Below are positions 19,451 through 60,334 of a stretch of DNA of 64,000 nucleotides, one piece after another. The position numbers and the translations under genes are program-made. This DNA is from Henricia sp. BOLD:AAB3569 (taxonomy: Eukaryota > Echinodermata > Asteroidea > Spinulosida > Echinasteridae): positions 310,001-374,000 of the forward strand of contig JBBELK010000682.1 of assembly GCA_037783545.1 (NCBI GenBank), in the 5' to 3' direction. Positions within the stretch are counted from its first letter, which is position 1; every line of letters begins with the position of its first letter. The notes under the pieces are model-generated. The model had not been told where the DNA came from and did no database searches. It saw nothing but the letters and a program-made list of their open reading frames with translations.

Positions 19451-19627
19451 ATGGCGTCGAAACTGAAGAAAACTTTCCGTTTCAAGACGGTGAAACCCCC
19501 AGCGATTGTGAATCCAATTTTGACAGACGAGGAACGAGAAGAACTGTCTGGTTACGAGTACCCGTGGCACAACATTGCGTTTGAGGGTGGCGGTAATAAA
19601 GGCTTGGCCTATGCTGGATCCGTGCGG
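19451..19627 (+). CDS. Gene 2, exon 1 with start codon
   Basis: 59 codons; donor CGG|GTAAGT. Encodes a basic N-terminus, then IAFEGGGNKGLAYAG, the oxyanion-hole loop. The upstream sequence ctcttgcag at about 19418-19426 could be an acceptor from a 5'-UTR exon that is not located. Confidence 0.88.
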
Positions 19628-22600
19628 GTAAGTTTGGGGTAGCTGCGCTGGGCTGCGCGCGGTAGGCCGGCCGATCAATGTACCGACCGCTGGCACGGCG
19701 TAGCCTGGGACTAGACAGAATAATTCTGTCCCTACGGATTTCCCGTAGGGACAGAAGGTACCTCTTTCATACAGTGGATTGTTGTCATTTTGCCTCCAAA
19801 TTAGAATCACACCCAAAAAATTCCTCCTAGTTGTGTCCTGCAATGGTTTCAGATGTCCATGATTGGAAAATGATTGAAAGAAAATACTTACAACACCGTT
19901 TTTGAAGCAAAAATGTTCTCCCAAATGCAAACTGACCGACAGATTTCCTCGTTATATGACGTGTTAATAATTCTGGAGTTGAGAACCAGCCGGAACCTAG
20001 CACGAAATTCGGGCCGGAATTTCGGCTGGCTGGATTTTGTACATATTGTTATTTTTACGGCTTCCGGAAATGCTCGAAAGGTCGATGGAAAGTTAGGCAC
20101 AATTCTACGCACAGATGCCGCGCTTTTCAAATGATTTTGTAAAATCGTAAAAAGCAAAAATTCCACAATTTTTTTCTTCTAATCGGTAAAGAATATCCTC
20201 AAGTTTATTTTATAAGCGCCCCGAAAGATTTGGTCATGGAAAAACTTCGAATTTTTCCTTTTTACGATTTTACAAAATCATTTGAAAAGCGCGGCATCTG
20301 TGCGTAGAATTGTGCCTAACTTTCCAGAGACCTTTCGAGCATTTCCGGAAGCCGTAAAATTAACAATATGTACAAAATCCAGCCAGCCGAAATTCCGGCC
20401 CGAATTTCATGCTAGGTTCCGGCTGGTTCTCAACTCCAGAATTATTAACACGTCAACGAGGAAATCTGTCGGTCAGTTTGCATTTGGGAGAACATTTTTG
20501 CTTCAAAAACGGTGTTGTAAGTATTTTCTTTCAATCATTTTCCAATCATGGACATCTGAAACCACTGCAGGACACAACTAGGAGGACATTTTTTGGGTGT
20601 GATTCTAATTTGGAGGAAAAATGACAACAATCCACTGTATGAAAGGAAAGCTGACTGACTAGCCTGGGACACGCCGCAGTGCGAATGGAAAAGCTGTTTT
20701 CAAACTGTTGTAATTTTCGTAATCCTCTGACTATGGGGAGAGAAGATGATAATAATTTTTTCTTTAAAATTACTCGCCAAGCATATGCCGGATGATCGGT
20801 AATGAAGATTTGGAAAGAATTGAGTAGGGTAAATGTTAGACCCGTGAACAGGGCTTCGGAAAATCCTCAGCCCTGGAGCCGTTTCTAACCCCAAATCTGT
20901 GGCAATTAAAATTCACGCAAATGAGTGCACAAGCCTCGCTCTGGTTACGTTCATTTTAATAGAAGAAAAGGGAAGATGGCCGCACCGTGACAAAGGTCTA
21001 TACCGCGTACCTATTGCACTATTGAATTTGCCCCTGGTTTTGTCTTCATTGTGCACAATAGCTTTAGTAGTAAAATAATTGCTTCCTATGTGTACCGTAC
21101 GTATCCTGCATGCTAACTGCTTCTGTATGCAACTAGCCCCATTCATAATGTAACACTAGTCTTTGTAAAAGACGTTCTAACTTAGTTCCGTTCGTGTACG
21201 TACACGCAAGCAACATTTCACCGTAGGGACTGGGAACTTGTTTATTTTACGGAGACTGTTAGTATATCTTTGGTTACTTGCCCAGAAAATTCCGAGCACA
21301 TTACACGAATACCATGCACCATAATCAGTCTTATGATCATTATTCATGAAGAAATGTAGTTAGTTTTGCGTTTGGGTGTTTCCAGGTCGGGCGAAGTCGG
21401 GCGAAACGAACATGTTCATACACATGTACATGTTGCAACTACCGGTAGTTGGATGTTGTTGGACGCTGTCTGGAGTGACATCCAAACCATCCAACTTTTG
21501 GTCGGCCGACATCGTCAGACACGAACGGAACTATTGTAGAACGTCTTGCACAATGACTAATGTAACACACATGCACATGGACTATGTAAATATTTGTTTA
21601 CAAACCACAGTATGATTTGATTTGTTTCTGTGGATCTAGGTGTTAGAGGAGATTGGAGTATGGAGCCAAGTAAAGCGACTAGCAGGCAGCAGTGCAGGAG
21701 CAATGGTAGCCGGCCTGCTAGCAGTGGGCTACAATTCTCATGACATTGAGGCATTCTTAACACAACCAAACCTGGAGAATATCTTTCTTGGTAAGAAATC
21801 AAGCATTCTGACCCTGTACATGTATTTAACCAAATGTGTCTGCCCAAATGCGGATGTGCATGACTGTTATGAAGGGTTCTCCACTAGCTGTATTGTCTGG
21901 GGACACAAAATAATTGTGATGGTTGATGAATATGGTGGCCACGATGGTTTTGTAGTCACAACTGCATGGCAAAACCATTGAATTTGTGGCCGTTTACACT
22001 AATGTTAACTTTTCGTCTAGACAGTGGGCTATGCAGCATCAAACAACTCTTTTTCCATATATGCAGCACGATACAATGTACATGTATGTGGCAGAGGGTA
22101 TTCCCCCTACTATTGCTCCCCCATTGTGTCTCAAACATCCAAGGAATTTCCAAGAAATTCCTTTCAGTTTTTAGGGGGCATTGGGGTTCGACCTCCGCCA
22201 ACGCGAGACCAAAATCTCGGAGTCTGATCCGGGGCCAATTTGGTCCTCGGTTTGTAATCCGGAGCTGATCCAGAGCTTGGTGCATGTTCGACCCTGAGCT
22301 CGGGATCAAGTGTAAACAGGTTGAGAAAGGGTACGTTCAGACGAGGTGTAAGTTAATCGTTAATCCGAAAATACTAAGTTATTCCTCGTTGGAATGCTCT
22401 AATTCACCAGCGGAGGAATAAGTTACGCCATCAAGGTGGCGTAACTTATTCTTGCAAAAAGTGGAGGAATAGCGCAAGTTGCTCCAAAGATAACGATCTC
22501 CCCCTGCTGTGCTGAGTCGTGAATCTCCGTTGGAACGCAACTGATGTGCCACTTCCTGTAGTAGTTTATTCGCACTTCTCCAGCGCAAAAACGCGAGAAA

Positions 22601-37600: not shown

Positions 37601-40600
37601 CAACGAGTAGCAAAGCAGACGTGTACAAGTCTAATCCCTAAGCAAGCGCCATCTTTGCCTGCATCGTAAACTGGCAACTGTCGTGCGTTGCGTGTGGTGT
37701 GTGATGCGTGCACGTGTGCAGTGCGTGGCTGGTGGGCAAGCAGTGGGCAACAGACCGATTTTACCCTCGGCTTTCGCTTCACCGTATTCAGCGATCGATG
37801 TTGCCTAAATTCTTTTTAATATTATCCACATCTGTACAAGTTAAATATTTAAAACAAAACTGGTTCTTGTGATAGCTGGTTAAAATGTTTTTGACATTGC
37901 AATTTGCATGATGGTGGTGTTTAAAACGATCCCCAAAGGTAAAAATATTTGTCTCTCCGATGCCCAGCCCCCTCCCCAAAGTAAGCCACGCCCCTTCCAG
38001 AATTTGTTTTTCTCCAATCTCACCCTTTTTGTACTTGCGTCACGATTCCAAACTGTCCGCCATGTTTTACTGCTCATGGTTACTAGGTGACGTCATATAG
38101 CGAGCTTTACACTACAGACCTGCTCGCGATCTCGGGTAGTGGTAGCTGCCATCAGGGCAGACTCGTGTATCACGTGATGGCTAAAAGAATGCTCCGGTGT
38201 AAGTTGGTGTTACATGGTGTAATCATCTCGAACGACCCTACTGTAGGCCTACAATGTACATGGCATACAGACATATACATAATTATGTCATACGTGTACT
38301 GTACTGTATGTACAGCACATGTGTGAAAGGACCAATTTCTGGCCATCGTCGGTCGATCAGGAAGAAATTTCTCTGCATTTTTGGAACTTGCATGCCTGTG
38401 CATACTGCTGCAGTCTGTGTACTTTTATATATTGTTACCTATGTATGATTATTCTTTTGTCCTCCCCAGATGCAAAGTTTGGCATTTTAAGCGCCCTGCC
38501 CAACATGATGAAGGGGTTTGGCTGGCATCCAGGCAACAAATTGTATTCTTGGTTTGGCAAGATGATACGCAAGAAAACGGGGGATCCAGACATCACGTTT
38601 GAAGAGGTGAAACTTATATACACTTGAATTAAATCAGTTTTTTTTTGTAATCTGTTGGTATGAGGGAACAAAAGTGTGGGTGGTCGGTACTGGCAAAAGA
38701 CCTGAATGCTGGTAATAGCTCAAGTTGAAGGTGAGGGTCATTATTAGTGTCCAGGGGCCGATTTCACAAAGCACTAAGACACGTCTTACTCCTAGGAAGG
38801 GTCATGCACTCTTCTTATCTTTGGACGTTGGTATGAGAATTGGGACGCATTAAACGCATAGTAACTTTTGTGAAATCTAGCCCAGGTTCCCAGCCAGTTG
38901 TAAACATATTGTTTATTAAGGTGGATTCACACTTACTTTTTTTTTTTCATGTATTAATTTTGCGTAAATTTGACATGCGTTGCCTCAAGAAAAATGTGGC
39001 TTGGATAGAATTTAGTTTGAACCGACGCACTAAAAAAAATTACAGAATCACAAAAACACTTGTTGCCCAAATTCAGTGTTGTTTTACACAAGTCCTTCCA
39101 CCCGCATTTTCTCGAGGTGACCAGTGTCAAAGTTACTGTGGAAATCCACCCTTACGATTGGCATGCAACCACACGTTTGAAACGACTTGACACACAACAC
39201 TTTCAGGCAAATCCGGACACTCCTTTAAGTTAAGCTAGAGACCTGAATGCTGATAATAGCCTAACCCCAAAGGTTAAGTCACTACATTGTCCAGTTCCTA
39301 CACTGCAAGTTGGTTGTAAACGTACTGTTTAAGACTGGCCAATCTCGCCTTTAAAACCACCCAACACAGCAGCACTTTGAATGAACGCGACGTGCGTAAC
39401 AAGACTTGCAGATAAGTACACAAAATGGCAAAACGGCAAAGTTTACTATCCATGTCTATCCACACTAAACCTTGTCGCGCGTAAATTTGATGTACACTAT
39501 TAAATGAGAAAAAGCATTTTGCAGGGAATTTGTAGTGGAAAAACAATGAAAATCACAAAAACACTTCACGCTTCAAGTTGATTCTTTGGTTTTCAGTGTA
39601 TTGTTTCGCTCTAAATCCCCTCAATGCTTGAAGCGACGCACGTCAAATTCATGCGCCAAAAGGCTCTGTGTGAATTAGGATGTAATGTTTGTTTCCTTGT
39701 CAGGTTTACAAGAGATATGGGAAGGAGCTATGCATCTGTGTGACCAACATCAACTTCCTAGACTGCAATTACTGTCACGTCAAGACTACGCCAGACATGC
39801 CCATCAGGAAAGCTATGAGGATGTCGGGATCCATTCCAGGTAGGTTTTGGCATTTTATGAGCTGTGACATTTCACAGACTAGCCTTTGCCTCAGGAACTA
39901 GTTTGTCAGCTTTCATTTATAACATTGACTCTCCACCAAGCATGCAACTTTTCTGCTTTACCAGGTGTCCAAGAAAAAAAAAAACCGAGATTAAAACGCT
40001 TCATGTAAAAACTTGGTGATTACCGCTATACTTTAATCCAGAATACTTTTGACTAAGACCGTGTTTACACTGGTCCTGAGCTCGGGATCAAGATTTATCC
40101 CTTGATAAGAATGCGTCAGTGTTAACTGCAATGATTCTGAGTGCCGCGTTTACATTCTGTAGTTGATCTCGAGTGCATGTACAGTGTACAATTTCGCAGG
40201 CTTTCCACCGCGGATGCGGCACGTTGCGGTAAAGATTAATTGGTTTTCTAACCGCAAACTGATCCCGAGCTCTGGATCGAACCCTCCGCCAACGCGAGAC
40301 CAAAATCTCGGGGTCTGGTCCGGGACAAATTTGGTCCCGAGAGCGTTTACACTCGGTTGTGATCTGGGGCTGATCCCAAGTGTAAACGGGGTGTGAGCAT
40401 CAATGGTTCAAAATGACCCTGTCAGAAATAGCTTTGTAACAGGTTTATTGGCTGAAAAGGATAAGCAGAATAAAAGAAGACAAAATAAAAACTTTGAAAA
40501 TTCTTGAATCAATCACAAACTATAATGTTTCCAATGAGAGCACTACATGTATGTGAAGGATTTTAATGGATAGTTGTTGCTGTTTTCCAAATTCCTCGGT

Positions 40601-43600
40601 AATTAGTTACCAAATAATTAGCATTTTAAACTAATTGTTTGTGATAATTTTCTGTTGCCAGGTGTTTTCTGCACAGTGAAGGATTCTTTAAGTTCATTCC
40701 CCGATCACTACGTAGATGGTGGGCTGTTGGTTAATTACCCTATTCATGCATTCGATGGTAAGTAAACTAAAAATAAATGGCAAATCGAGGAGGCTAAGAT
40801 TTAACATACATGACCATCTCTTGTGACAAGGCTGACTTTTGCTAAAATGAGTTGAGCTTTTTGGCATGTTTGGCCCACTCGGGGGGATCAGGGAGCATAT
40901 TTACAATAAAAGGTGTAAGTAACATCAATCTATACTGTATCTATATTATACAAATATTGACTGCTTCGAGTGGTATAGTAGAACTAGCCTCCCGAGGTGA
41001 CCCATGGAGCATTCTATTTTCCCGAGGTGAAGCCGAGGGAAAATAGAATGCTCCATGGGTCACCGAGGGAGGCTAGTTTTACTATACCACGAGATAAAGC
41101 AGTCAATATTTGTTTTATAACACCTCTCCCACAGATTCTGCTTAATTAAGCTTAAACAAAAATCAATAATAAAACACCTAAAGTGGAAATCGGTTTCATC
41201 AAATTAAATTCAGAAATTCCAATGGAACAGCAATGTATTTAAGGCATGTAGTTAAATTTATGTAATGAAACTCTTCTAAACAAAGTCACTGAAGACTAGG
41301 GGTTCCGTTTACAGAAGCATCAATCTCTTTATTTTCCCATCAAACCTTTTACACTGTTGATACTGTCTGCTCTCAATCGTATCTCCATCGTAACTCTCTC
41401 CTTCAAAAATGTGTTATTGCTTATAATTCCAAAAGAAGGGCTGCGCGTATCTTAGGCCCCGGACGCGCACATCCCAGGCCCCGGACGCGCGCCGGATATA
41501 GTACTTTCCTGGAACAATGGTGCATGGAATAGTCTTTTTGGAGCACTTGTACAAAAATAGCAAAAATAGCCAGCGTCACGTGACACGCTCTCGACCAACC
41601 ACGATACAGAATCTGTGGGTGAGGTGTTATAATACTATTTATGCTAACATTTCTGATTTCTCAGCTATAAAGAAACTTTAAAACTCGTTTTTCTCAAAAC
41701 ATCATTTTTGGACATACATTGTAGAATGTTCCGGTTTTAAGAGGACAATTAGCGATTTGCATTTCTCTTTTTGGACGCGTAAATAAGTCAAATATTTGAT
41801 CTTTTCAGGTTGGTATTTGTCGATGAGACCTGAAGACACTTTCCTTAAGAGAATTCAGCCGCTGAGAGACATCCGAAAACTGTGGGACCGCAAGGAACGC
41901 TTTGGTCATAAGAATGAGAGGACGCTTGGCATGTTGCTGGTAAGTTGTGCGAACAATAAACAGTGTATAGTCAAAACCCACAAGAACCCACTTTTACTGC
42001 TGTTTAGTATTAAATGTTTAAAGAAGCGTTACCAGATTTTTCCAGAAAATAAATTTTGTTCTAACCGAACCATCATAAAATACCTCCCCAAAATACTATC
42101 CATGGGAAGAAAACAGGAAATTTGCAATCCCCAATTTGGATGTGGAAGCAGAAAGGTTGGTGTAATCACTGCACTGCTTTATGTACCGTAATTTTCGGAA
42201 TATAAGCCGCCCGGGGTATAAGCCGCGACGCCCGAAAATTCCAGAAACAAGATTCACCGTCGGCGTATAAGCCGCCCGGCTTATTAGCCGCACCATTTTG
42301 TCGGCCACAGATCGATCACAATATATAAAGAACTGCCGCCGTAAGTGCCTCACCGCGGGCCACGTGCGCGCGACCGCGCACTGCACAGTAGTCACACTCT
42401 CTGTCGGCACGGCATGTCGCCTCAAAGAGAGCTTTGTGGTCCAGGTTGTTTTGATGACTGCACACTCAAGAGAAAACCTTATTGAAATCAAGAAGTGGCT
42501 TTATCGGAAAAGGCGTTACATGTTTATAATAAGTTATATAGCAAGGTGCAATGCACTCAAAGTAGGCTAATCTTGTTTCAGTTTGTTTTGTAAATAGATA
42601 AAGTACATGTAACTTGACATATTTTAAAAATGCCTTGGAATGTGCATAATAAGAAATCTCCAAAAAATAAAGGAGAGTATATTAGAAGCCATCGATGACG
42701 ATCGAAGGCCGCAAGCCATCAAGATATTCGCTGGATTCTCCGACGGCGGCCACACGGCAGTGCACCAGGCCGACAGGCCATGCACAAACACGGTAAGTGA
42801 AAGCATAGAGCAGGGCTTCGTTCCAAATACGCGCACATTGTTAAACGTTTGCAACGTTCGCCAACAACATTCCCAGCTTGTACGCATGCACAAGATAAAA
42901 GAGCGCAGAGGCGAACGTTGCCAACGTTCGCATGAGTGGAACGCAGCCCACGTGTACAAATTGTACACTGCTTTCGCCCGGGCCCGACGCATGTGCTATG
43001 CATGTACGATAATAGCCGGCCGAGTCTCTCCATTACGCGCACCGCGATTGGCTATTTTCAATGCACATGGTGACTTGGCGATTTTGATCTCACCGGCCAA
43101 AATAAAATATGCCAAACGTTTTATGTTTGATTGCTTCCGTATTGTACTGCCACTACATTGCATTTGTCATGCGTTTGGGTCCATCACGATTAAACTAAAA
43201 ACGCAAAGGACATGACAGTGACAAAGAATTAGACATTGTACTGGACCAGATGGACGGGGGTTTAGACCGAAGCTGCAACATCAATAATTGGACGGTTCAT
43301 GGGGCCTCTCCATTTTTGCAAAAAGAGTTTATAAATAAGAAAACCAGCTTCACGGTGGTCCTTGCCTGCACGGCCAGCGGCAAAAAACTGAAGCCGATGG
43401 TCATCATCAATGGGCGTCTTGAGCGGAGTATACCAAGGCTGTGCAAACGCTATGCCTTCTTGTTTTCCGAATTCGGTTATCTCAATAGATCATTCTATGT
43501 TGATTCACTATACATCATTCAAAATTACTTGAAAAAGAACATTGCAACTGACATAAAAGGGGCTTCATGGGGATTGGGTGATTGATATTAATATTTGTAA

Positions 43601-52600: not shown

Positions 52601-55600
52601 CAAATACAAAGGTGAATAAACCTTACTCATTATCAAATGTTTCAGAATAACTTGGCTTATTTTGTGTGTGTACATAAGACCGTGTTTACACTTGATCCCG
52701 AGCTCGGGATCGAACACCGAGCTCGGGATCAGCCCCGGATCACAAATAGGTGTAAACGCTCTCGGAACCAAACTGGCCCCGGATCAGACCCCGAGATTTT
52801 GGTCTCGCGATGGCGGAGGGTTCGATCCCGAGCTCGGGATCAGTTTGCGGTTAGCTGGGCAATAAATCTTCCCCACATCCTGTTGCGGGCTAAAGCGCGC
52901 GAAAATTCCAGGGGAGCTCGTATTATGTACACGTGTACACGTAGTACATGTATATATACACGCACACAGGTACCACTGGTTCCATGCATTGTGTGCAGGC
53001 ATATATGCCTGGACAAAATGCATGATACCCCGACGCGACTCATGTGATGCAACGCTGAGAATCTCGATCGAAAACACAACGTACTACAAACGTAATTGGT
53101 ATCCTGCATTCAGCAATCTCTTTTGCGTGTCCGATACAAACTTCACACGTTGAGAAAAAGTGTTTTGTATTTCCTCTACTTTCTGCAACTTCTCTACTTT
53201 CTGCAACTGTCTAGCGACACTTTGTCATTATCATACAGCTTAGTTTTTAGTTGTTATATCAAGGATTTCGGAGTGTCATTCAACGATTTCCGACATAGCA
53301 TAAGTTGACATTATTTCGTCGTGAAGAGAAGTTGACGAAGACGAAGTAGCCGAGTCGAGTTGTCTTCGTGTGAAAAGATGGCAAACGAAGTTCGCGGGCG
53401 CTCGTGGAGCAACGACAAACTGGCGAAGTTTTTGGACATTTGGGCCAGCGCAGAAATAATGGCTAAACTAGACGGAACATCTCGGAATTCTGCTGCGTTA
53501 GCTTGACCTTTGACTGCAACTTCTGGCTCCGCGCTCGGGATCAACAACAGATATAAACGCGGCACTCGAGACCATTGCGGTTAACCTAAACACATTCTTA
53601 TCAGGGGGTCAATCTTGATCCCGAGCTCGGGACCAGTGTAAACACGGTCTAACAAAATCTAATGTGGTTATGATTTCCTTTTTACAGTATTCTGATTTTG
53701 AGCCTGAGGTGATGAAGGACGCCCTCAATGCTCGTCATGCCTACTACCAAGACTATTCCCAGGCTGTACCCAACACCAAACTAGCAAAGTGAGTGATCGG
53801 TACACATTCACTTTTTGCCTCAACTTCGTGAAATGACCCATTTACTTTTTTCACATGCCAAGAAACTCTATGTTTGACAGATTTTCACAATGGATAAGAA
53901 ATGGGTCTTTCCACAGTAAAGGGGGCATTTTGGCAACACGTACCATATTTTCGAGGAAATACCTTTGCCTGGTCTCAAAATAAAAGAATAAGTTTAAGTT
54001 GTTCTGAAGAGATAACTTGGGCCCAAAAAAGGTCACAAATAGTGTGACAACATGCCTTTTTTAAAACCCTGTGTACAAATTTCCAATATACGCTCGTAAC
54101 CGGGACAGATACTTTAGTTTTTTCATGGTTTGCAACAGGTAACATGTAAAACAAACCTAAACTGTCATGGGTTACAAAAGTTTCTGCAAGTTGGAGAAAA
54201 TTGTGGAAACTTTTGTGCACAGTTGAATGAGATTTTCCTGTGTTTTCCTAATGTGACATCACCACTTTGCTCATGCATATGTAAATTTGCATTAGCATAA
54301 AAATCTAAAACCTTTATTTTAACCCCCCAAACAACTTTCAAGTAGGGTTTTTATGATTGTAAATTAATGGACTAGTTCCATAGCACAGATTTCATTGATA
54401 AAAACACCATTTCAGGGGCCCTTTAAGATACTTCTCGAGGCATGTAATGTGCATATTTAGGGTGGCCAGTTTTGGCCTTTTTTTGTTTTAATACCGAGCA
54501 ACAAAAGAAATGCAAAAACATTCTCCACTTTTTGATTGCAGAAGCAGTCAATCTGAGAGTGGGAATTTTCAACACACAAACTTTATACACAGTCATGCAT
54601 AATGACGCTGTTATATGAATATTTTGATGTCAACTTAATTACCAGGATTGTAGTCGAGTTCATCAACCCTTCACAAGTCCACGACAAGTCCCTGGGTCTT
54701 AATTCTAGTCACAAGCTGTTCAAATGAACTCTAACAAAGGCATTCTTTTGTGCGTGTTCATCCTTTGCTTCTTGTTACTGGACTTGTGACAGACTTGTGC
54801 GGGACTTGTCACGGACTTGTGATTTTTATCGGCTCTGGAATTGTGATAGACTTGTGATGGACTCTACTTATTACCCTGTTAATTACAAAATAATTTTTTT
54901 TTCAAATTGATTAAACTGAAAATATGCTTTTTGTCACTCTTTCACGCTTATCAACATTACCATATGCAGTCTTGATTTTTACGTTTTGCATTTTTACCTT
55001 TTTTGTTTTTCAGGAAACGCACAAAGAAGAAAAACAATGAGTACATTGAGGCACAGCACAGCAGCCTGGTGGAAGCAATGGACTTGCTTGTAGCAGAGTT
55101 GAATGTACAGGACCTGGATAAGGATGGGAATATCTCGCTGGAGGAATGGAAGAAAGCATTTTCAAATGTAGGTTCGAGGTCCATTTAAACTTAATTCGGC
55201 TTGGCAAATTGAACCCTGTATTTTCTGTAATTGTATCCCTAAACACGGCAAGTTGCAGCCGGCTAGGCGCTACGTGTAAACACAAAAGGTGAATTGAAAA
55301 AAGGCGCGTCAGACTTGGGTCTGATTCGCCTTTTAGGTAGGGATGAACCTAGTCCAAATGCTTCAGACGCTCACGGCTCTCGGGAAACAAATCTGACATT
55401 TAACTTGTACCGTGAACGTCTGAAACTAGAGCAGGAGTCCTTTCCACTGTGAAGGGGGCATTTTGGCAACACATAGGCCTACCATATTTTTTCAGAAAAT
55501 ACCTTTGTCTGGTCTCAAAATCAAAGAAATAAGTTTCAATTGTTCTGAAGAGATTCAAAAAAGGGTTACAAATAGTGTGACAACATGCCTTTCTAAAAAC

Positions 55601-58600
55601 CCGGTGTACAAATTTCCAATATGCGCTTGTAACCCGGGATAGACACTTGTGTTACATTTTAGGCAGTCTCGGTTACTAGCGTATATTGGAAATTTGTACA
55701 CGGGGTTTTTAGAAAGGCATGTTGTCACACTATTTGTAACTCTTTTTTAGCCTAAGTTATCTCTTCAGAACCAAACTCAAAATGTTGTCGTACGACTGTC
55801 CTACGACATGCGTATGATTTTAGGGTCTTTCAAGGCCCTCAAAATTGTACGATAATCGTACACATGTCATAGGACAGTCTTACGATTGACGTACGATTGT
55901 CGTACAATGGTCCTGTGATACTCGTACTTTGGTTGTTTAACTTGTTTTGTTTTGCAACAATTACACGACGAAAAAACATTGTACGACAAACGTAGAACAA
56001 TCGTAGGACATTTGTGCGATTTACCTACGATAATGTGCACATTTTTTCCCACGACGGACGCACATGATTTTCCCTTGGAACTGCGGCTAAGATTGTAGCC
56101 TAAGCATCGTAAAATCCCACCCCAACATCGTTGCCCAAGAATTTCGATCGATAAAAAATATCCTGTGACGTATGTGACATAGGCTTAAGCACTAAGCAGT
56201 GCCATGAAATTGGCCCCTGGATGAAACGGTCTTGAGATCACTTTAGGAAATTACATATACCAAACAGTGTGAAATAATGTGCTTGAATTATGTTTACTTT
56301 TATTCACAGAAAGATTCTGCTTTTACTGATGAGCACAAACGGATGTTGTTTGGAGAAGATGGACTAAACCCTGAAGAACTCTTCAATAAGTTGGATTTTG
56401 ACCAAAATGGAGAGGTGAGCCAAATATCGCTGGAATATCATAGGTCTTTTTATAAAATTGTGAGCCAAAGTGTGACATTTTGATGCAATTGGCTTTTCCA
56501 AGTTATCAAAATTGTTTAAAGAAATTCCTGTGCAATTTTTTAATCGTGTGGAATACGCAGAGTTTTTCTCCACATTTTGTTTAAAATAACAATCAATCTG
56601 GAAGTGGAAATTTTCACCACACAAAAGCTTTATGCAATCATGCATTATTATAAAGCTGTTATGTGAATATTTTACTGTCGACTTACTAACAAAAGAAATT
56701 TTGAAATTTTGATAAAACTGATCATTTGCATTTCTTCAAGGTGTCCGCGTGTCTTAAAAAGTCTTAAATTATTTTTCTAAATTTGAGGCCTTAAAAAGCA
56801 TTAGAAAGCATTATAAAGCATTATAAAGCATTAAAAAGTATTAATTTATTAGCTAGATTTTGGGCCTGTGGTGGCATTAAAAAAAGGTCTTAAAAAGTCT
56901 TAAATTTGACTTGCTGAAACCTGCAGACACCCTGCTCTTGTTGCTTGGCATAGTTTGATATTCTTTTAAAATATTCTAATTATGTAAGGGAATTTTCAAC
57001 TGTTTAAATTTAATTTGAAGCCTTTTGGACCAGTTCATTTTTGGAAAAGGTAGCTGTTGGTTTTACCCACCCTATAGAACCTGTAGTTTATCAATTCAAA
57101 TTACATTGGGTGAAATTTTAGAAAATCTTTCAGTAAATGTTTCAAAATGTCACACTTGAATTTTAGTGAATCGTTCTCATCACATTTTTTTTGGTATTAA
57201 CAAGTAAAGATGTTTGATTAACATGGCATACTTTGTATATATGCTAAGATTAATCGTTCTCTGAAGCTCAATATTTATACAAAATCTATTCCAAAAGTCA
57301 TGGAATGACCCATATGGGACCATTGATGCAATTTTGGTTGTACATGGTATAAGTTATTGTTGCTCGTCCTTTCTCCACTACTTAGGTCAGTTTCCGAGAG
57401 TTGGTGTACTGGGCCGAGCAGCGAGGTCTCAAGCTTCTATCAGCATTCAGGGGCTATGAGAGACGCGAGATCAAGTCCATGATGGAATTCTTCTCCACAA
57501 TGATGGAATGTCTACTGCTCAACATGAAACGAGTCTTCATTCAGGTTTGTCTGCCGCTGTTGTCTTCGTCGAATATGTGACCCACTGAGACCTCCCTGAC
57601 ACCTTTCTAAGACCCAAGTGTGAATTCACGTAAATGTGACGTGCGTTGCTATGATAAAGTGGGGAGGAGGGAATTTGGGTGAAATAATGCACATGACTGG
57701 GTACATTTTTTTGTGTCACAGTGCATCTAAGGGCAAAACAAACCCTAATAGACCGATCCAGTAAGCTCCGCCCATTTTGGAATTGACCAATCACAGCCTC
57801 AGGTTCAGGTAACCAAAAAGTGGATCTATATTTAATTTTGGTTACCCGAGTCCTCAAAATGCAGCACAAGTGTCGCAAAAACACCATAAACATCATTTTT
57901 ATCAGCGCAGACGAGGCCTAGCGGGTTTAAAACGGATTGTATAACACTATCCTAACCTACTTTTAATCCCTTCATAAATGTATTTTTGTGTAAACGTGAA
58001 AAACTTACCAAAATTAGCTTGTCGTTTTTGCTAAGTTGTGCATTCACTTCGATCTAGATGTGTGTCGAGATGTTTTGGTTCGATGGCGCGTGTTACGCGT
58101 ATTGCAGGCGCGCGTGTTGTACGTGCACGCATACGACCGGATACTTAAGTGCACATTTTGCTTTCGAGCGTGCAGTTTCTGTGTGCGTGTGCGTGTTTCA
58201 ATACGCGCTGACCAGGACGCTGAAGCACGGCATGGCCACGCGACTCTACTGCACACGTGCATCGCAAGTGTGGCATGTTGCTAGGCAATTTCTAAATGGG
58301 CGGAGCTTACTGGATCGGTCTATTAACAGTGCGTCTAATTTACTTTCTGACACCTGCAGTTTCTGTGTGCATGTGCGTGTTCCATACATGCTAAAACTTA
58401 CTAGGGCGCGGTCACGGCCGCTGGCCAGACTAAAAAGTCGGTGTTCGTTTAAGACGGGCCACGTGATGTGCTCTCAGTTAATAGGGATGCATATTAACTG
58501 TCTATGGTATTCATATTAAAACAATTCTTCATTATCACTGAATTATTCTGATTAAAATTTCAAAGGTCTCTGAATGGTCTCCACTACACCTTGCTGTGCA

Positions 58601-60334
58601 AAAAAAAGGCAGGGTTGAGTTCGCAAATCTGACCGAGCTTAAATAAAAATATTTTGAAGCATTGCTTACTGAAGCATGCAAGGGTACCAGTTTGTGAATA
58701 AAATTAATGAAACTCACAGATTTCCATGCACCAATAATGGCAAGAGATTTCTATTCAAGAACGGATAAAAACTGGGAGAAGAAACAGCCATGTGAGCCAG
58801 TAAGGTCGTGAACCAAATCAAGGCTAGAAATGCTAGACCACACGTGGCGAGCACGTGTGGTCTAGTGGGTATTAAGCCGTGCTCCTGATTGAAGGATTAT
58901 GTGTTCGAGCCCCACTTGTGCCAACATGTGTTTGTGTCTGTGGGCAAGACACTTAATCTCAATTGCCTCGTCAACCCAAGCGATATTTGGGGAGCTGTTA
59001 GTGTGCCTTGGCCAGGAAGCCACCCAGTTGAAGCGAAATGGTTCTGGTGATTTCCTGATGGCAGCGATAATGCTAATGGCAACAGCACCAGGAGTACCCT
59101 AGGGTAGACATGTGTGCTATACAAGTGTCCACCATTACATTACATTAATAAACGGCTTAAACAAAAGCTTGTTTTTTTCAATCAGGAAAATGATTTGTAC
59201 CGGACGGTAGGAATTGACTGTAAATATCTGGAGGCTATGGACTTTAACATGGACCCCGAAGACCAGAGATATCTCGTTCAGGTATGACCTTTCTAACCTT
59301 TTAATTAACTTATCCAAAATATTTACCCTTTAAAATGGCCGTCTAAAGTTGTCAACATTTTTACAGGTCTACAAAGCATAGGAAAGGGGGCGGCGGTTGG
59401 GCATGTCAAGGGCAGCGTATGACTTTACATGCAATGTAAAATGTTGACATTTCATAGTAGTGACAAAAGTTGGTAAGTAGTTGAAAATACTATGGTCTGT
59501 AGAACCATGAAAATGTTGATAACCTTGGACGCCCCTTCTTCTAGGCATCGTCCATCCACTGCAGGATGTAGCCCTCTGTCAGACTGCCCCAGGATGTTCT
59601 CTGCTTTGCTATATCTTGCTATTCTTGTCTAAGTACTGAACAGTACTGAACAGTGCACATGTATGGTATGTGCACGCACATGGATAACATCCCACAATTT
59701 TGTCGTACTGTATAAAACAAATTAAGCATGTGTGACCGCATTTTCCATATGCACTGAAACTGACTACGACCAGACGAGAAAGTGATAAAAACCAGCCGGG
59801 TCCTTCATCTTCCATTTTAGACACGAGACATGCTTTCAGCCAATAGAAATGCATTTATAAACTATTTTTTATGAATATACATTTTTATGATTAAACTTCC
59901 TTTTAACAACATATGTGCATATATGGAAATTATTTTCACAGCAAGGTAAACTGGGCTGCCTGTCCTACCTGCGAGAATTCATTGACAAATTTAAACCAAA
60001 CCTGCGACACAAGAAACCAGCGCCACGCGACAGCCGCAAACTCCACCGCGTTACCATGGAATTTTCGCGCCTGCTGAACAGCGAGTCGGACACAGAGCAT
60101 GTTTTTTCACCAACTCCCGAACCCTACGAGGGACACGATGATGTCTTCAGCACGCAGATGAAAGCCATGAATGGGAAGACGGCGGAGGCAAACAAAGCGT
60201 GGAAGGATGAGGCGTCGACGAACGCTGAGAAAGTTAGTGCTAAACGGGTCACCATTGTCGTAAATGAAGAAAACGAGGATGATTCTGAAAAAGATGACGT
60301 GTCTTCTGCGGAAGGGGGTACCACTTACCTTTAA
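19451..60334 (+). CDS. Patatin-like phospholipase with two EF-hands, 12 exons, complete
   Basis: Exons: 19451-19627, 21640-21790, 38470-38606, 39704-39839, 40662-40757, 41809-41939, 53688-53788, 55014-55167, 56310-56414, 57386-57544, 59186-59281, 59942-60334. They sum to 1836 nt, 611 residues plus stop, with all phases closed. The patatin fold spans about residues 40-235: oxyanion loop GGGNKG (46-51), elbow GSSAG with Ser77, and dyad Asp219 in DGG. A linker (KLWDRKERFGHKNE) follows. EF-loop 1 is 343-354 (DLDKDGNISLEE) and EF-loop 2 is 390-401 (DFDQNGEVSFRE). The tail is acidic and ends TTYL. No signal peptide or membrane segment is seen, so it is probably cytosolic. Family knowledge predicts a Ser-Asp dyad lipid acyl hydrolase; calcium control is inferred from the EF-hands. 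The start has a good context (gtcATGG). It matches no named PNPLA that I know. Confidence 0.88.
19724..19756. repeat. Perfect small hairpin
   Basis: 14-bp stem TTCTGTCCCTACGG with a 5-nt loop. It abuts the big foldback that follows. Confidence 0.7.
19761..20646. repeat. Long foldback, two 400-bp arms
   Basis: Left arm about 19761-20163 and right arm about 20249-20646 are near-perfect inverses, separated by 85 bp. It lies in intron 1 of gene 2 and would form a very long hairpin in the pre-mRNA. Open frames on either arm mirror each other and are not thought to be genes. Confidence 0.8.
21640..21790 (+). CDS. Gene 2, exon 2
   Basis: Acceptor gtggatctag, donor TTG|GTAAGA. Encodes VLEEIGVWSQVKRLAGSSAG and MVAGLLAVGYNSHDIEAFL, with nucleophile Ser77. 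Confidence 0.9.
22040..22180. repeat. Dispersed repeat also at 18000-18140
   Basis: Shares gcacgata, tgtctcaaacatccaagg-like and cagtttttagggggc segments with 18020-18135, partly inverted. Confidence 0.45.
22183..22322. repeat. Fragment of GTGTTTACAC element
   Basis: Contains cgcgagaccaaaatctcgg and gagctcgggatcaagtgtaa as at 40260-40395 and 52780-52850. Confidence 0.6.
22329..22973. mobile_element. MITE with GGGTACGTTCAGA ends
   Basis: Left end GGGTACGTTCAGACG; right end is the inverse, ccatctgaacgtaccc. About 645 bp, no long frame. In intron 2 of gene 2. Confidence 0.65.
23810..24000 (+). repeat. SINE-B, tRNA-derived
   Basis: gtagctcaattggtagggtg (A box) and ggttggaatcctagtgcagc (decayed B box), then the same tail as at 3845, and an A/AAT-rich end. 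The piece before it (23590-23690) is another copy of the family's 3' part. Confidence 0.7.
24140..24232 (-). repeat. tRNA-like SINE head
   Basis: On the - strand it ends in a B box (ctggttcgaatcccataatg) after a tRNA-like body. The flanking text (gggaggaaaaccc) recurs at about 28860. Confidence 0.5.
24505..24720. repeat. Inverted-repeat cluster
   Basis: A hairpin with cccattggactaatttttgt on one side and acaaaatttagtccaatggg on the other (24517-24590), followed by a third copy of gtccaatggga near 24708. Confidence 0.6.
26118..26372 (-). mobile_element. TTAA MITE family T1, partial
   Basis: Follows the inverted form of the 2856 copy (gtctgtagatgattctg, then tcttggcggggtgtttcaaa) and stops near 26370. 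TTAA at 26114-26117. Confidence 0.65.
27561..27813. mobile_element. MITE family M2, copy 2
   Basis: Ends TTGACCCCTTTCAAA and the inverse TTTGAAAAGGGGTCAA, flanked by TA at 27559-27560 and 27814-27815. Clearer ends than copy 1. Confidence 0.75.
27881..28700 (-). mobile_element. Probable solo LTR
   Basis: On the - strand there is a TATA box (tatataagtcgcg, + coordinates about 28608-28620) and, about 450 bp on, an AATAAA (28163-28168), and the segment ends gtgtggcgtcaca at 27881. TATA, then poly(A) signal, then a CA end is the LTR layout. No primer-binding site or gag/pol frame is nearby, so it is solo. The other boundary is approximate, and it interrupts a SINE-like repeat. Confidence 0.5.
28942..29100. 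repeat. Hairpin-MITE relative of 18357-18523
   Basis: Starts tagaccactaaagtgtgacg and continues in parallel with the 18357 copy (gctggtaat-gaaacgtcc). Confidence 0.6.
29105..29315. repeat. Dispersed repeat, uninterrupted copy
   Basis: Inverted match to both halves of 13425-13905; it lacks the M2 element and so represents the pre-insertion form. Confidence 0.6.
29668..29817. repeat. Hairpin MITE, TATAGACCGTATCGAATAG type
   Basis: Arms of about 36 bp, nearly perfect, through gccgctatttcatgg; the loop holds about 75 bp. Confidence 0.75.
29920..30010. repeat. Hairpin, cactatgagcaactaacaat
   Basis: Arms about 40 bp with a tip at ttgttattaataat. Confidence 0.7.
30160..30545. repeat. Dispersed repeat R, intact copy
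   Basis: Inverted match to 41941-42183 joined directly to 44471-44640. It gives the empty site for the pogo-like element at 42186-44468. Confidence 0.7.
30712..31229. repeat. 518-bp direct repeat, copy A
   Basis: Repeated 924 bp downstream at 31636-32153, apparently without difference. Holds internal 40-bp near-repeats (ggggcataccaagccctt). The same small frame is present in both copies; it resembles no known protein and is probably incidental. Confidence 0.8.
31610..31634. repeat. 10-bp-stem hairpin just before copy A'
   Basis: CCTTTTATCA, a 5-nt loop, then TGATAAAAGG. It ends one base before the second direct repeat and is absent in front of the first. Confidence 0.7.
31636..32153. repeat. 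518-bp direct repeat, copy A'
   Basis: Second copy, offset 924 bp. The spacer between the two is 406 bp. Afterwards the sequence is unlike that following copy A. Confidence 0.8.
32154..33219. other. Unassigned stretch in intron 2
   Basis: A-rich, with no repeat partner, splice-site-linked exon or transposase motif recognised. The short frames on both strands match no family. Confidence 0.4.
33220..33478. repeat. 259-bp direct repeat, copy C
   Basis: Repeated 3119 bp downstream at 36339-36597 without visible difference. It ends in tctggcgacc; that end, with the following ggacggcg, looks somewhat like a retroelement primer-binding site, which is weak evidence only. Confidence 0.8.
33479..36338. 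other. Stretch between the C repeats
   Basis: Has a G-rich tract (33840-33895), a poly-T/GTT run (35288-35325), GC-richer sequence than the surroundings at 34320-35900, and a fragment of the 50917 MITE at about 36190-36338. No coding match found. A short ATG frame with a donor-like end (ccgaggagaatgatgag|gta, 35838-35867) would not join gene 2 exon 3 in phase. Confidence 0.4.
36339..36597. repeat. 259-bp direct repeat, copy C'
   Basis: See copy C. It is flanked by unrelated sequence on both sides: a MITE fragment to the left and a T-rich stretch to the right. Confidence 0.8.
36665..36835 (+). repeat. SINE-C, tRNA-derived, with intact T arm
   Basis: tatagctcagctggtagagc (A box) and gtctcgggttcaaatcctga (B box). 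The terminal stem is nearly closed (ccttat...ataagg), but the anticodon stem is broken. The 5' extension is shared with 13118. A SINE head is preferred over a working tRNA. Confidence 0.7.
37476..37735 (+). repeat. Dispersed repeat shared with 8855-9128
   Basis: Parallel match over about 260 bp with several small gaps. Confidence 0.6.
38470..38606 (+). CDS. Gene 2, exon 3
   Basis: Acceptor tcctccccag, donor GAG|GTGAAA. Encodes KFGILSALPNMMKGFGWHPG and KLYSWFGKMIRKKTGDPDIT. Preceded by a 16.7-kb intron. Confidence 0.88.
38754..38883. mobile_element. Small MITE, GGGCCGATTTCACAAAG type
   Basis: Ends GGCCGATTTCACAAAG and inverse CTTTTGTGAAATCTAGC, flanked by CCAGG on both sides. The direct duplicate at 39225-39330 lacks it. 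Confidence 0.7.
39704..39839 (+). CDS. Gene 2, exon 4
   Basis: Acceptor tccttgtcag, donor CAG|GTAGGT. Encodes ELCICVTNINFLDCNYCHVK and PDMPIRKAMRMSGSIPG, the conserved patatin core strand and the A-R/S-x-IP segment before the dyad. Confidence 0.9.
40057..40395. mobile_element. GTGTTTACAC element, 339 bp copy
   Basis: Ends GACCGTGTTTACACTGGTCC and inverse-type gtgtaaacggggt; the interior has repeated gagctcgggatc palindromes. Intron 4 of gene 2. Confidence 0.7.
40662..40757 (+). CDS. Gene 2, exon 5 (catalytic Asp)
   Basis: Acceptor ctgttgccag, donor ATG|GTAAGT. Encodes DHYVDGGLLVNYPIHAFD; Asp219 of DGG is the expected dyad partner. Too short to be found as a long frame, but unmistakable as a patatin motif. 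Confidence 0.9.
40949..41119. repeat. Hairpin MITE, 65-bp arms
   Basis: caaatattgactgcttcgag and its inverse enclose gaccatggagc-type sequence; arms meet near 41032. Intron 5 of gene 2. Confidence 0.75.
41118..41631. mobile_element. MITE, TAACACCTC-CCCACAGATTCTG ends
   Basis: Left taacacctctcccacagatt, right the inverse at 41607-41631. Directly abuts the hairpin before it and ends about 180 bp before exon 6. Confidence 0.65.
41809..41939 (+). CDS. Gene 2, exon 6
   Basis: Acceptor gatcttttcag, donor CTG|GTAAGT. Encodes WYLSMRPEDTFLKRIQPLRD and KERFGHKNERTLGMLL, the end of the lipase domain and start of the linker. Confidence 0.87.
41941..42183. repeat. Dispersed repeat R, left part of split copy
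   Basis: Inverse of 30335-30545; continues at 44471-44640 on the far side of the pogo-like element. Confidence 0.7.
42186..44468 (+). mobile_element. Dead pogo-like DNA transposon
   Basis: Ends CCGTAATTTTCGGAATATAA and inverse, followed inwards by several 'ataagccgc' repeats at both ends. TA at 42184-42185 and 44469-44470. The DDE-type fragment at 43246-43585 gives the class. A 28-bp-stem hairpin lies at 43704-43764. Confidence 0.75.
43246..43585 (+). pseudogene. DDE transposase fragment, pogo/Tigger type
   Basis: Frame on the + strand with SFTVVLACTASGKKLKPMVI and FYVDSLYIIQNYLKKNI. The T-V-x-L-A-C...G-K-L-K-P-M-V-I block is typical of the pogo/jerky DDE_1 superfamily. The rest of the gene is broken into separate pieces (another at 42640-42790, ATKIFAGFSDGG-like), so there is no working transposase. 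Confidence 0.6.
44471..44634. repeat. Dispersed repeat R, right part of split copy
   Basis: Inverse of about 30190-30330 (aatttcagaatggtaat region). Confidence 0.65.
44635..46390. mobile_element. DNA element with CCCAGCTAA ends and ACGTTC clusters
   Basis: Left cccagctaaccaaataacgt, right acgttatgttttagctggg. Beside both ends lie many copies of gaacgttc-like motifs (44655-44760 and 46140-46380), as in subterminal repeats of transposase-binding elements. No transposase-like frame in the 1.75 kb, so non-autonomous. Superfamily not determined. Confidence 0.65.
46770..47331. mobile_element. TTAA-flanked MITE, family T2
   Basis: Ends AGGGCCCCTGAAATG, exactly inverted as CATTTCAGGGGCCCT, flanked by TTAA at 46766-46769 and 47332-47335. 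A partial copy lies inverted at 54116-54422. Confidence 0.8.
47336..48088 (-). mobile_element. piggyBac-like element, internally deleted
   Basis: Ends CCCTTTCAATACCG and GGTATTGAAAGGG, flanked by TTAA on both sides (47332-47335 shared with the previous element, and 48089-48092). CCC-start ends plus TTAA are the hallmarks of piggyBac. It contains a decayed coding remnant on the - strand. Confidence 0.75.
47338..47818 (-). pseudogene. piggyBac-like transposase remnant
   Basis: Starts at ATG (47816-47818, - strand). An acidic Asp/Ser-rich N-terminus (FADSDSDIDLESSEE, then EDSDESSEVSS in another phase) is followed by a Gly/Arg-rich stretch and then a Cys-rich end. Acidic N-terminus and Cys-rich C-terminus fit piggyBac/PGBD proteins. 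One early stop and one frameshift are present, and the catalytic core is missing. Confidence 0.5.
48093..48150 (+). mobile_element. TTAA MITE family T1, end fragment
   Basis: After TTAA (48089-48092): AGCCTCAATGCATCATTTAC, then cacgagttgac, divergent T1 left end. Confidence 0.4.
48246..49035 (-). mobile_element. Decayed Tc1/mariner-like element
   Basis: Inverted arms: ggataagttctcctgtgtct (about 48298) against its inverse near 48967, and ttatttgc-ctgacaccctta segments at 48510/48915. Between them lies a transposase N-terminal relic. Confidence 0.55.
48671..48772 (-). pseudogene. Transposase N-terminal HTH remnant
   Basis: ATG at 48770-48772 (- strand): MARPQLTPQQRAYLVSEFHR then ATAVFQSFRQ and a stop. 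After the stop the frame goes on with ARCPTGATVYSNV. This is the style of the N-terminal helix-turn-helix of Tc1/mariner-type transposases. Early stop and missing catalytic domain make it non-functional. Confidence 0.5.
49135..49805. repeat. Dispersed repeat, paired with 2170-2665
   Basis: Shares gattcattctaaaacactt-like, cggcttgcacatgaaaa and the ttcgaatattcgatggaaga end in parallel; the middle (gcaggatgtttttaattc to gtgagg) matches in the opposite orientation. Confidence 0.5.
49845..49977 (-). repeat. SINE-A, internally deleted
   Basis: Tail and 3' part (ttcataccaaggattcctc...gaaacccatgaa) join directly to the tRNA-like head (attgcaagtcaatgacccaa), lacking the whole body. Confidence 0.75.
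49978..50916 (+). other. Unassigned part of intron 6
   Basis: AT-rich sequence; no recognised gene, repeat partner or inverted structure. Confidence 0.4.
50917..51393. mobile_element. MITE, GGCCCGTTTACACTCGATTCG type
   Basis: Left cccgtttacactcgattcgc; right inverse ccggttcgagtgtaaac. Internal palindromes around gcctttttcaagtcacctt. Partial copies at 36190-36338 and 55245-55345. Confidence 0.7.
51436..52525 (-). mobile_element. Probable solo LTR with internal 87-bp repeat
   Basis: Read on the - strand it begins TGTGAACC and ends CACCGTAACA. It has a TATA-like tatataagtgagcac (+ coordinates about 52190-52205) and an A/T-rich poly(A)-like run near 51650. Two blocks repeat: caggaaaaacgacggcaggc at about 51688 and 51770, and aggtgtgacagaggt at 52445 and 52507. 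No gag/pol frame. Ends are estimates. Confidence 0.45.
52678..53650. mobile_element. GTGTTTACAC element, long copy
   Basis: Ends AGACCGTGTTTACACTTGAT and inverse agtgtaaacacggtct. Left and right parts are rich in gatcccgagctcgggatc palindromes. 973 bp, interior without a recognised gene. It stops 37 bp before exon 7 of gene 2. Confidence 0.75.
53688..53788 (+). CDS. Gene 2, exon 7
   Basis: Acceptor ctttttacag, donor AAA|GTGAGT. Encodes YSDFEPEVMKDALNARHAYY. The acceptor lies only 37 bp after the end of a 973-bp repeat element (52678-53650). Confidence 0.85.
53905..54422 (-). mobile_element. Composite repeat: T2 MITE fused to another repeat
   Basis: 54116-54422 is an inverted T2 end (matches 46770-47050), with TTAA at 54423-54426. 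53905-54115 matches 55438-55650 (agggggcattttggcaacac, agtgtgacaacatgcc). Confidence 0.65.
55014..55167 (+). CDS. Gene 2, exon 8 (EF-hand 1)
   Basis: Acceptor gtttttcag, donor AAT|GTAGGT. Encodes a Lys-rich linker, the entering helix (SSLVEAMDLLVAELNVQ) and the complete EF loop DLDKDGNISLEE with WKKAF as the exiting helix. Confidence 0.9.
55245..55345. repeat. Fragment of the 50917 MITE
   Basis: gtgtaaacacaaaaggtga and gtctgattcgccttttaggt in parallel with 50995-51070. About 80 bp after exon 8. Confidence 0.55.
55438..55790. repeat. Foldback repeat
   Basis: acaaatagtgtgacaacatg on the left, its inverse catgttgtcacactatttgt on the right; arms about 90 bp. The left arm is shared with 53905-54115. 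Confidence 0.7.
55795..56060. repeat. Cluster of TACGAC motifs
   Basis: Repeated variants of gtacgattgtcgtac / cctacgac on both strands, mostly self-complementary; likely a decayed palindromic MITE. Confidence 0.55.
56310..56414 (+). CDS. Gene 2, exon 9 (start of EF-hand 2)
   Basis: Acceptor ttattcacag, donor GAG|GTGAGC. Encodes DSAFTDEHKRMLFGEDG and the first seven positions of EF loop 2 (DFDQNGE). The intron cuts the calcium loop. Confidence 0.88.
56785..56845. repeat. Short tandem repeat, agcattataa
   Basis: About five imperfect units of aaagcatta. Confidence 0.6.
57386..57544 (+). CDS. Gene 2, exon 10 (end of EF-hand 2)
   Basis: Acceptor actacttag, donor CAG|GTTTGT. Starts with VSFRELVYWAEQRG, finishing EF loop 2, then SMMEFFSTMMECLLLNMKRV, a long helix. 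Confidence 0.87.
57749..58322. mobile_element. MITE, TAGACCGATCCAGTAAGCTC type
   Basis: About 31-bp near-perfect inverted ends (inverse at 58292-58322, gagcttactggatcggtcta). Interior GC-rich with cgtgtt/gcgcg motifs; no gene. Confidence 0.75.
58843..59150 (+). repeat. SINE-D, tRNA-derived with (ATTAC)n end
   Basis: gtggtctagtgggtatta (A box), gtgttcgagccccacttgtg (B box), body with gtgggcaagacacttaat, and a short attacattac tail. Ends 36 bp before exon 11. Confidence 0.75.
59186..59281 (+). CDS. Gene 2, exon 11
   Basis: Acceptor tcaatcag, donor CAG|GTATGA. 32 codons: ENDLYRTVGIDCKYLEAMDF then NMDPEDQRYLVQ. Confidence 0.83.
59282..59941 (+). other. Intron 11 of gene 2
   Basis: Holds a segment (59340-59540) sharing agttgtcaac-ttt and tttacatgcaatgtaaa-like motifs with 15095-15300. 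No coding features. Confidence 0.45.
59942..60334 (+). CDS. Gene 2, exon 12 (last), with stop
   Basis: Acceptor attttcacag ends at 59941. Encodes GKLGCLSYLREFIDKFKPNL, a basic stretch, then a Ser/Glu-rich low-complexity tail (EENEDDSEKDDVSSAEGG), with stop TAA at 60332-60334. Confidence 0.85.
   Translation, partial: QGKLGCLSYLREFIDKFKPNLRHKKPAPRDSRKLHRVTMEFSRLLNSESDTEHVFSPTPEPYEGHDDVFSTQMKAMNGKTAEANKAWKDEASTNAEKVSAKRVTIVVNEENEDDSEKDDVSSAEGGTTYL

Follow-up and report, generated by a model that had tools for sequence, protein, structure and literature searches.

The patatins are recognized by an oxyanion loop of the form G-G-G-x-K/R-G, a nucleophilic Ser in a GxSxG motif, and an Asp in a DG[GA] motif, and among their animal members ankyrin repeats typify PNPLA9, while cyclic-nucleotide-binding domains typify PNPLA6/7. 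In the portion of a 2026 review considered here (PMC12871566), the human PNPLA family is classed as calcium independent, a separate protein, calmodulin, is described as an inhibitor of PNPLA9, the activity of VipD is raised by Rab5, and ExoU is activated by, and needs, ubiquitin. Here, we describe a gene of the sea star Henricia sp. BOLD:AAB3569 encoding a patatin that carries its own pair of EF-hands. The gene lies in a window of 64,000 nucleotides (positions 310001 to 374000 of contig JBBELK010000682.1, C682 in the following) of a 740.7 Mb genome assembled in 2104 contigs. The best explanation of its product, which we hold with somewhat more confidence than doubt, is a cytosolic Ca2+-switched phospholipase of the patatin class, whose fold is interrupted by the EF-hand pair and which belongs to a single lineage, hereafter called EF-patatins; the protein most likely falls outside PNPLA1-9.

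The 611-residue protein presents the oxyanion loop GGGNKG at residues 46-51, the GxSxG motif, reading GSSAG, at residues 75-79 (Ser77), and DGG at residues 219-221 (Asp219), followed by two canonical EF loops, DLDKDGNISLEE (residues 343-354) and DFDQNGEVSFRE (residues 390-401), both with D at positions 1 and 3, D or N at position 5, G at position 6, I or V at position 8, and E at position 12. An initial annotation, made from the letters of the window, had listed the same three patatin motifs as intact and the same two EF loops with ligands at positions 1, 3, and 5 and Glu at position 12, and we confirmed these motifs throughout. Ser77 and Asp219 are, by position, the predicted catalytic pair; in alignment A2, G46-48, K50, G75, S77, G79, and D219-G221 are invariant, and Ser77 and Asp219 are so in alignment A1 as well. 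An Arg in the oxyanion loop, which the initial annotation regarded as usual in animal PNPLAs, is indeed found in PNPLA6 and PNPLA8. However, the PNPLA2-like exon of this same genome reads GCGFLA, and the loop of iPLA2 is given as GGGVKG in the part of the source considered (PMC6523306), so that the contrast was only partly right.

The Pfam Patatin family (PF01734) matches residues 43-231 with an E value of 9.9e-27 (94.8 bits against a cut-off of 27.7), EF-hand_1 matches two stretches above its cut-off (E 9.5e-9), and the pair profile EF-hand_7 covers residues 343-405 (E 2.6e-6; 28.1 bits, slightly under its cut-off of 30). At E values up to 1, Pfam returned patatin and EF-hand families only, with no ankyrin repeat and no cyclic-nucleotide-binding domain. 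The comparison with NCBIfam, which took in named patatins and calcium-binding effectors (VpdC, XopAW, the lipase of the cyclic-oligonucleotide-based antiphage signaling system [CBASS], and RssA), gave five families at E values up to 1, all far under their cut-offs, the best being the effector family VpdC (66.2 of 1000 bits). Neither a signal peptide nor a membrane segment was noted by eye in the 611-residue protein, and for this reason a cytosolic location is assumed.

The EF-hand pair forms an insert, some 145 residues long, at a single site within the patatin domain, downstream of the TLG strand and upstream of the helix leading to the last strand. In particular, the spacing from DGG to the RTV/RTI motif amounts to 234-240 residues in three animal rows (236 in the window protein) and to 223-228 in all eight bacterial rows with EF-hands, against 70-87 in three ordinary patatins. 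In the 22 rows of alignment A5, the 13 ordinary patatins lack the insert block, all at the same place, and the ordinary patatins L066 (genome G201) and L070 (genome G015) matched both flanks of the profile in a class-wide search, with the middle skipped. A structure model of a bacterial member also has the EF pair nested in the fold, with a helix-loop-helix pair visible; an earlier model from 9 rows was set aside (predicted local distance difference test score, 50.8). Patatin, EF-hand_1, EF-hand_6, and EF-hand_7 were found at E values up to 0.01 in each of the nine A2 rows (four animal and five bacterial), and at least one fully canonical EF loop is present in all 16 copies in which both loops could be read (5 animal and 11 bacterial), although which of the two stays canonical varies between groups. 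As judged from the aligned sequences, the insert is the defining trait of the EF-patatin lineage, and the window protein carries it. The initial annotation had pictured EF-hands added in animals to a core of bacterial type; this part is not supported, and a fusion made in the animal is rejected, since the pair is nested inside the fold and is equally so in the bacterial relatives.

The gene runs on the forward strand from the ATG at 19451 to the stop codon at 60332-60334, and its 12 exons, rebuilt with paralogs of the same genome as guides, make up a coding sequence of 1836 nt. All 11 introns are GT-AG, the phases close to one frame of 611 codons, and the rebuilt model equals the 611-residue product initially annotated at 19451..60334. 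The features are listed below, with the support from contig C822, which we read as the other haplotype, and from five paralogous loci (C887a, C887b, C245a, C245b, and C139) in which these exons recur in unchanged order, so far as readable.

19451..19627 (+), exon 1: residues 1-59, with the oxyanion loop GGGNKG at 19586-19603; 100% identical on C822
21640..21790 (+), exon 2: residues 60-110, with the nucleophile elbow GSSAG at 21685-21699 (Ser77)
38470..38606 (+), exon 3: residues 110-155; matched in 5/5 paralog loci
39704..39839 (+), exon 4: residues 156-201; matched in 5/5 paralog loci
40662..40757 (+), exon 5: residues 201-233, with the predicted catalytic DGG at 40715-40723 (Asp219)
41809..41939 (+), exon 6: residues 233-276, whose last element is the TLGMLL strand preceding the insert, from the alignment of relatives
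53688..53788 (+), exon 7: residues 277-310, where the insert starts; 5/5 paralog loci
55014..55167 (+), exon 8: residues 310-361, with EF loop 1 (DLDKDGNISLEE) at 55111-55146; 4/5 paralog loci, not found in C245b
56310..56414 (+), exon 9: residues 362-396, with positions 1-7 of EF loop 2 at 56394-56414; 5/5 paralog loci, C139 being the weakest
57386..57544 (+), exon 10: residues 397-449, with the remainder of EF loop 2 at 57386-57400, the end of the insert, and the helix preceding the last strand
59186..59281 (+), exon 11: residues 450-481, with the C-terminal patatin motif RTVGID....DF; 4/5 paralog loci, not found in C139
59942..60334 (+), exon 12: residues 482-611 and stop, with the end of the fold and then an acidic tail; 99% on C822
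55015..57400 (+), EF-hand pair nested in the patatin domain: residues 311-401, from Pfam (343-405) and the DGG-to-RTV spacing

Exon 1 was also matched at C139, C245a, and both C887 copies, while the acidic tail of exon 12 was not seen in the aligned bacterial rows. Conserved but short stretches at 49979 and 50725, two in number, were considered as exons and dropped, as their frames contain stops and the gap is closed by the exons at 53688 and 55014. Upstream of the gene, an open stretch of 108 residues at 16166-16492 (+) looks exon-like by eye and has no Pfam match above cut-off.

On C822, all 12 exons occur in order, and 606 of the 611 residues equal those of the window protein. The codon differences between the two copies comprise 26 silent and 5 replacement changes, with Nei-Gojobori (NG86) nonsynonymous (dN) and synonymous (dS) estimates of 0.0035 and 0.070, a pattern of codon change that shows purifying selection on the gene between haplotypes. 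Intron 1 measures 2,012 bases in the window versus 1,039 on C822, and the window stretch 19712-20658 has no C822 counterpart; this intron holds a foldback element at 19764-20645, with long arms in three stacked pairs that are 96-98% complementary, and we read the haplotype difference as a recent insertion or loss. Intron 2 (16.7 kb in the window versus 20.8 kb on C822) and intron 6 (11.7 kb versus 4.6 kb) also differ in length, as if mobile elements were coming and going.

A peptide search with exons 4-6 gave one locus each on C682, C822, and C139 and two each on C887, C773, and C245; the C887 pair, of which C887a fits exons 1-11 into some 9.3 kb, is found again on C773, read as the C887 haplotype. 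If C682/C822 and C887/C773 are paired as haplotypes, the EF-patatin family amounts to six loci in this genome. The exon search in the paralogs imposed the phases of the window gene; exon 1 of C887a/b was placed by hand from a BLAST match, and exon 12 of C887a/b was accepted despite poor scores (6 and -13). The paralog sequence fetched yielded no exon 12 for C245a, no exons 1, 8, and 12 for C245b, and no exons 11 and 12 for C139. In C887a/b, EF loop 1 is degenerate (LDSNTGTVSKKEL) and loop 2 canonical, and C245a has a Lys at position 3 of EF loop 2; from these residues, the calcium response of the paralogs may differ. Further copies of exon 1, reading VVVEGGGNKGLSS or nearly so, lie at C245:2056001-2141000 and possibly represent more genes or broken copies. 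Elsewhere in the assembly, a cox1 stretch with TGA in frame recurs three times on C955:8261-40981 in steps of 16,221 bases and is also found at C2104:7096-7374; from the spacing on C955, that contig is apparently a tandem assembly of a mitochondrial genome some 16.2 kb long.

Relatives of the protein were sought in genome contigs of 84,980 species with alignment A1, a scan that is insensitive because it is built on two 8-residue patterns. Of the 48 stretches matched, 10 encode relatives (L037-L046), nine of them full length and L046 cut by the contig end; by title, they comprise one Deltaproteobacteria record (ranked Myxococcota), one Myxococcales record, and eight Actinomycetota records, two of which are titled Bifidobacterium breve and are taken as mislabelled bins. 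When genomes were searched with profiles, a full-length match came from 2 of the 247 in the class of G004, both of them seeds, and from 4 of the 71 in the class of G001, namely two seeds plus L074 and L075, which were new; those four were obtained again from the 377 genomes in the phylum of G001, and one, a seed, from the 396 in the phylum of G005. The 11 full-length bacterial proteins have no introns and are 33-36% identical to the window protein across approximately residues 38-491, EF region included. Judging from these loci, the EF-patatin trait is real in bacteria, and rare and patchy among the genomes searched.

No plasmid match was obtained by tblastn with L037 at an E value of 1e-20. 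Among viral contigs, A1, A2, and a single ordinary patatin used as queries retrieved no relative, the ordinary query being a poor one, with untranslated upstream residues, while a scan with A4 found 20 patatin loci, 13 of which were aligned (A5), all without the insert; a viral structure library gave matches to patatins from giant and insect viruses. The introns, the two haplotypes, and the paralogs rule out that the animal assembly is contaminated here, and contamination of the bacterial metagenome-assembled genomes (MAGs) by eukaryote DNA is ruled out by the presence in two phyla, the lack of introns, the G+C content of 71% (L037 and L038), and bacterial-looking neighbours, namely, by eye, an elongation-factor-G-like open reading frame (ORF) in L038 and a sugar-kinase-like ORF in L043.

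Trees were computed with IQ-TREE on the core only, leaving out the insert, for 5 animal and 8 bacterial EF-patatins. The EF-patatins form one clade, both with human PNPLA rows (support, 99/99) and against 16 ordinary patatins (100/100), in which the animal rows group together (100/99 and 95/88) and the bacterial rows likewise (95/90 and 92/88). The PNPLA rows cover five of the nine PNPLAs, plus one partial exon from this genome; those of PNPLA6 and PNPLA8 were flagged as very long branches. The PNPLA tree was built without L041, L042, and L044 (near copies), L046 (partial), C822, and C887b, and without L049, L052, L055, L057, L059, L060, L062, L063, and L067 (no ORF by the filter, or too unlike). 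The tree with 16 ordinary patatins further omitted the PNPLA rows, the long branches L050, L053, and L058, and the viral-contig rows L079, L083, L086, and L088 (apparent near copies), L084 (a stop, owing to a start placed out of frame), and L092-L096. The Pfam hits L001-L003 were left aside, as a patatin frame could not be read in them on the strand shown.

We propose that the protein would act as a serine lipase with a Ser77-Asp219 dyad, most likely a phospholipase A acting on membrane phospholipids. The calmodulin-like EF-hand pair would bind Ca2+ and, in doing so, would move the long helix upstream of it and the last strand-helix unit downstream, thereby opening the active site or docking the enzyme on the membrane; activation by Ca2+ appears likelier than inhibition. 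As at least one canonical loop persists in every copy fully read, calcium binding would be what selection keeps, and with the EF pair joining two core elements of the catalytic domain, such binding should affect access to the active site or docking on the membrane. Alternatively, Ca2+ (or Mg2+) might occupy the pair at all times, making it a structural brace or a docking module, with no switching. The degenerate EF loop of several members speaks for such a constitutive role, whereas the canonical loop retained in 16 of 16 copies and the position of the insert beside core strands of the catalytic domain argue against it; we consider it unlikely, if worth keeping in view. The approximately unbiased (AU) tests, run on a short core, do not reject the animal rows with PNPLA8/9 (p 0.39), PNPLA6 (0.225), or PNPLA2/3 (0.099). 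The first AU result would also suit a named animal PNPLA (e.g., PNPLA8 or 9) that gained an extra domain. Because the AU tests leave the PNPLA groupings unrejected, the shared insert carries part of the lineage argument; these tests caution against a firm claim and are set against the best tree, in which the EF clade stands apart from the animal PNPLAs, the shared insert, and the strong pairwise similarity to the bacterial EF-patatins. A named PNPLA, already disfavoured, is highly improbable, and the distinct lineage advanced in the initial annotation is upheld by the best tree but not by the AU tests. That patatin and EF-hand exons belong to separate transcripts, as two genes or a chance chain of exons, could be suspected from the length of introns 2 and 6 and from a gene model drawn from genomic DNA alone; however, the phases close to 611 codons, C887a holds exons 1-11 within about 9.3 kb, and bacteria encode the whole protein in one ORF, so that we reject separate genes as improbable in the extreme.

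As to the origin of the EF-patatins, the insert was probably gained once, in a lineage now found in this animal, Myxococcota, and Acidimicrobiia. We advance only tentatively that a built-in calcium switch evolved once and that the whole enzyme passed between bacteria and animals and then expanded to at least six animal loci. The direction of transfer is not fixed by the trees, as the AU tests reject the grouping of the animal rows neither with the Myxococcota rows (p 0.11 and 0.33) nor with the Acidimicrobiia rows (0.06 and 0.26). The nested enzyme might have been made in a eukaryote lineage and then received by bacteria. EF-hand pairs are commonest in eukaryotes, the trait is sparse in bacteria (2/247, 4/71, and 1/396 in the class of G004, the class of G001, and the phylum of G005), and the animal and bacterial rows are sister groups, on which the trees are silent as to direction. 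On the other hand, among the patatins seen that lack the insert, those of highest similarity are bacterial (L066 and L076), in a sample without eukaryote patatins of this type, and the insert is present in two bacterial phyla; a eukaryote origin is therefore conceivable, though rather unlikely.

Among the PubMed Central matches listed, no title or abstract beginning described a patatin with EF-hands, subscription papers and eukaryote protein databases lying outside this scope, and proteins of this type may well have been annotated without receiving a name. An EF-hand pair within the catalytic fold would link a calcium signal directly to lipid hydrolysis. If so, some members of a phospholipase class held to be calcium independent would be directly driven by calcium, and bacteria would own a one-protein calcium-to-lipid signalling device; moreover, the shared insert offers a clean marker for tracing gene exchange between bacteria and animals. 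Being small and free of introns, the bacterial members would lend themselves to a test of the switch by expression in a laboratory host of Escherichia coli.

Compared with known systems, the closest solved folds, by sequence and by model, are the ExoU/VipD-class and PlpD patatins, in which, different from the window protein, no EF-hand pair was noted. The CBASS phospholipases CapV and CapE are patatins too and, from the titles, were solved with a bound cyclic-nucleotide messenger; their messenger is not calcium, and no EF-hands were noted. The animal PNPLA9 (iPLA2beta) has ankyrin repeats and is counted as calcium independent, and its regulator is not built in, unlike what we propose for the window protein. 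The bacterial EF-patatins (L037-L046, L074, and L075, from Myxococcota and Acidimicrobiia MAGs) differ from it in being intronless, in lacking the acidic C-terminal tail, and in having one EF loop that is usually non-canonical, but they share with it the oxyanion loop, GxSxG, DGG, the TLG strand, the EF pair, and the RTV/RIV..I.TDY...F motif.
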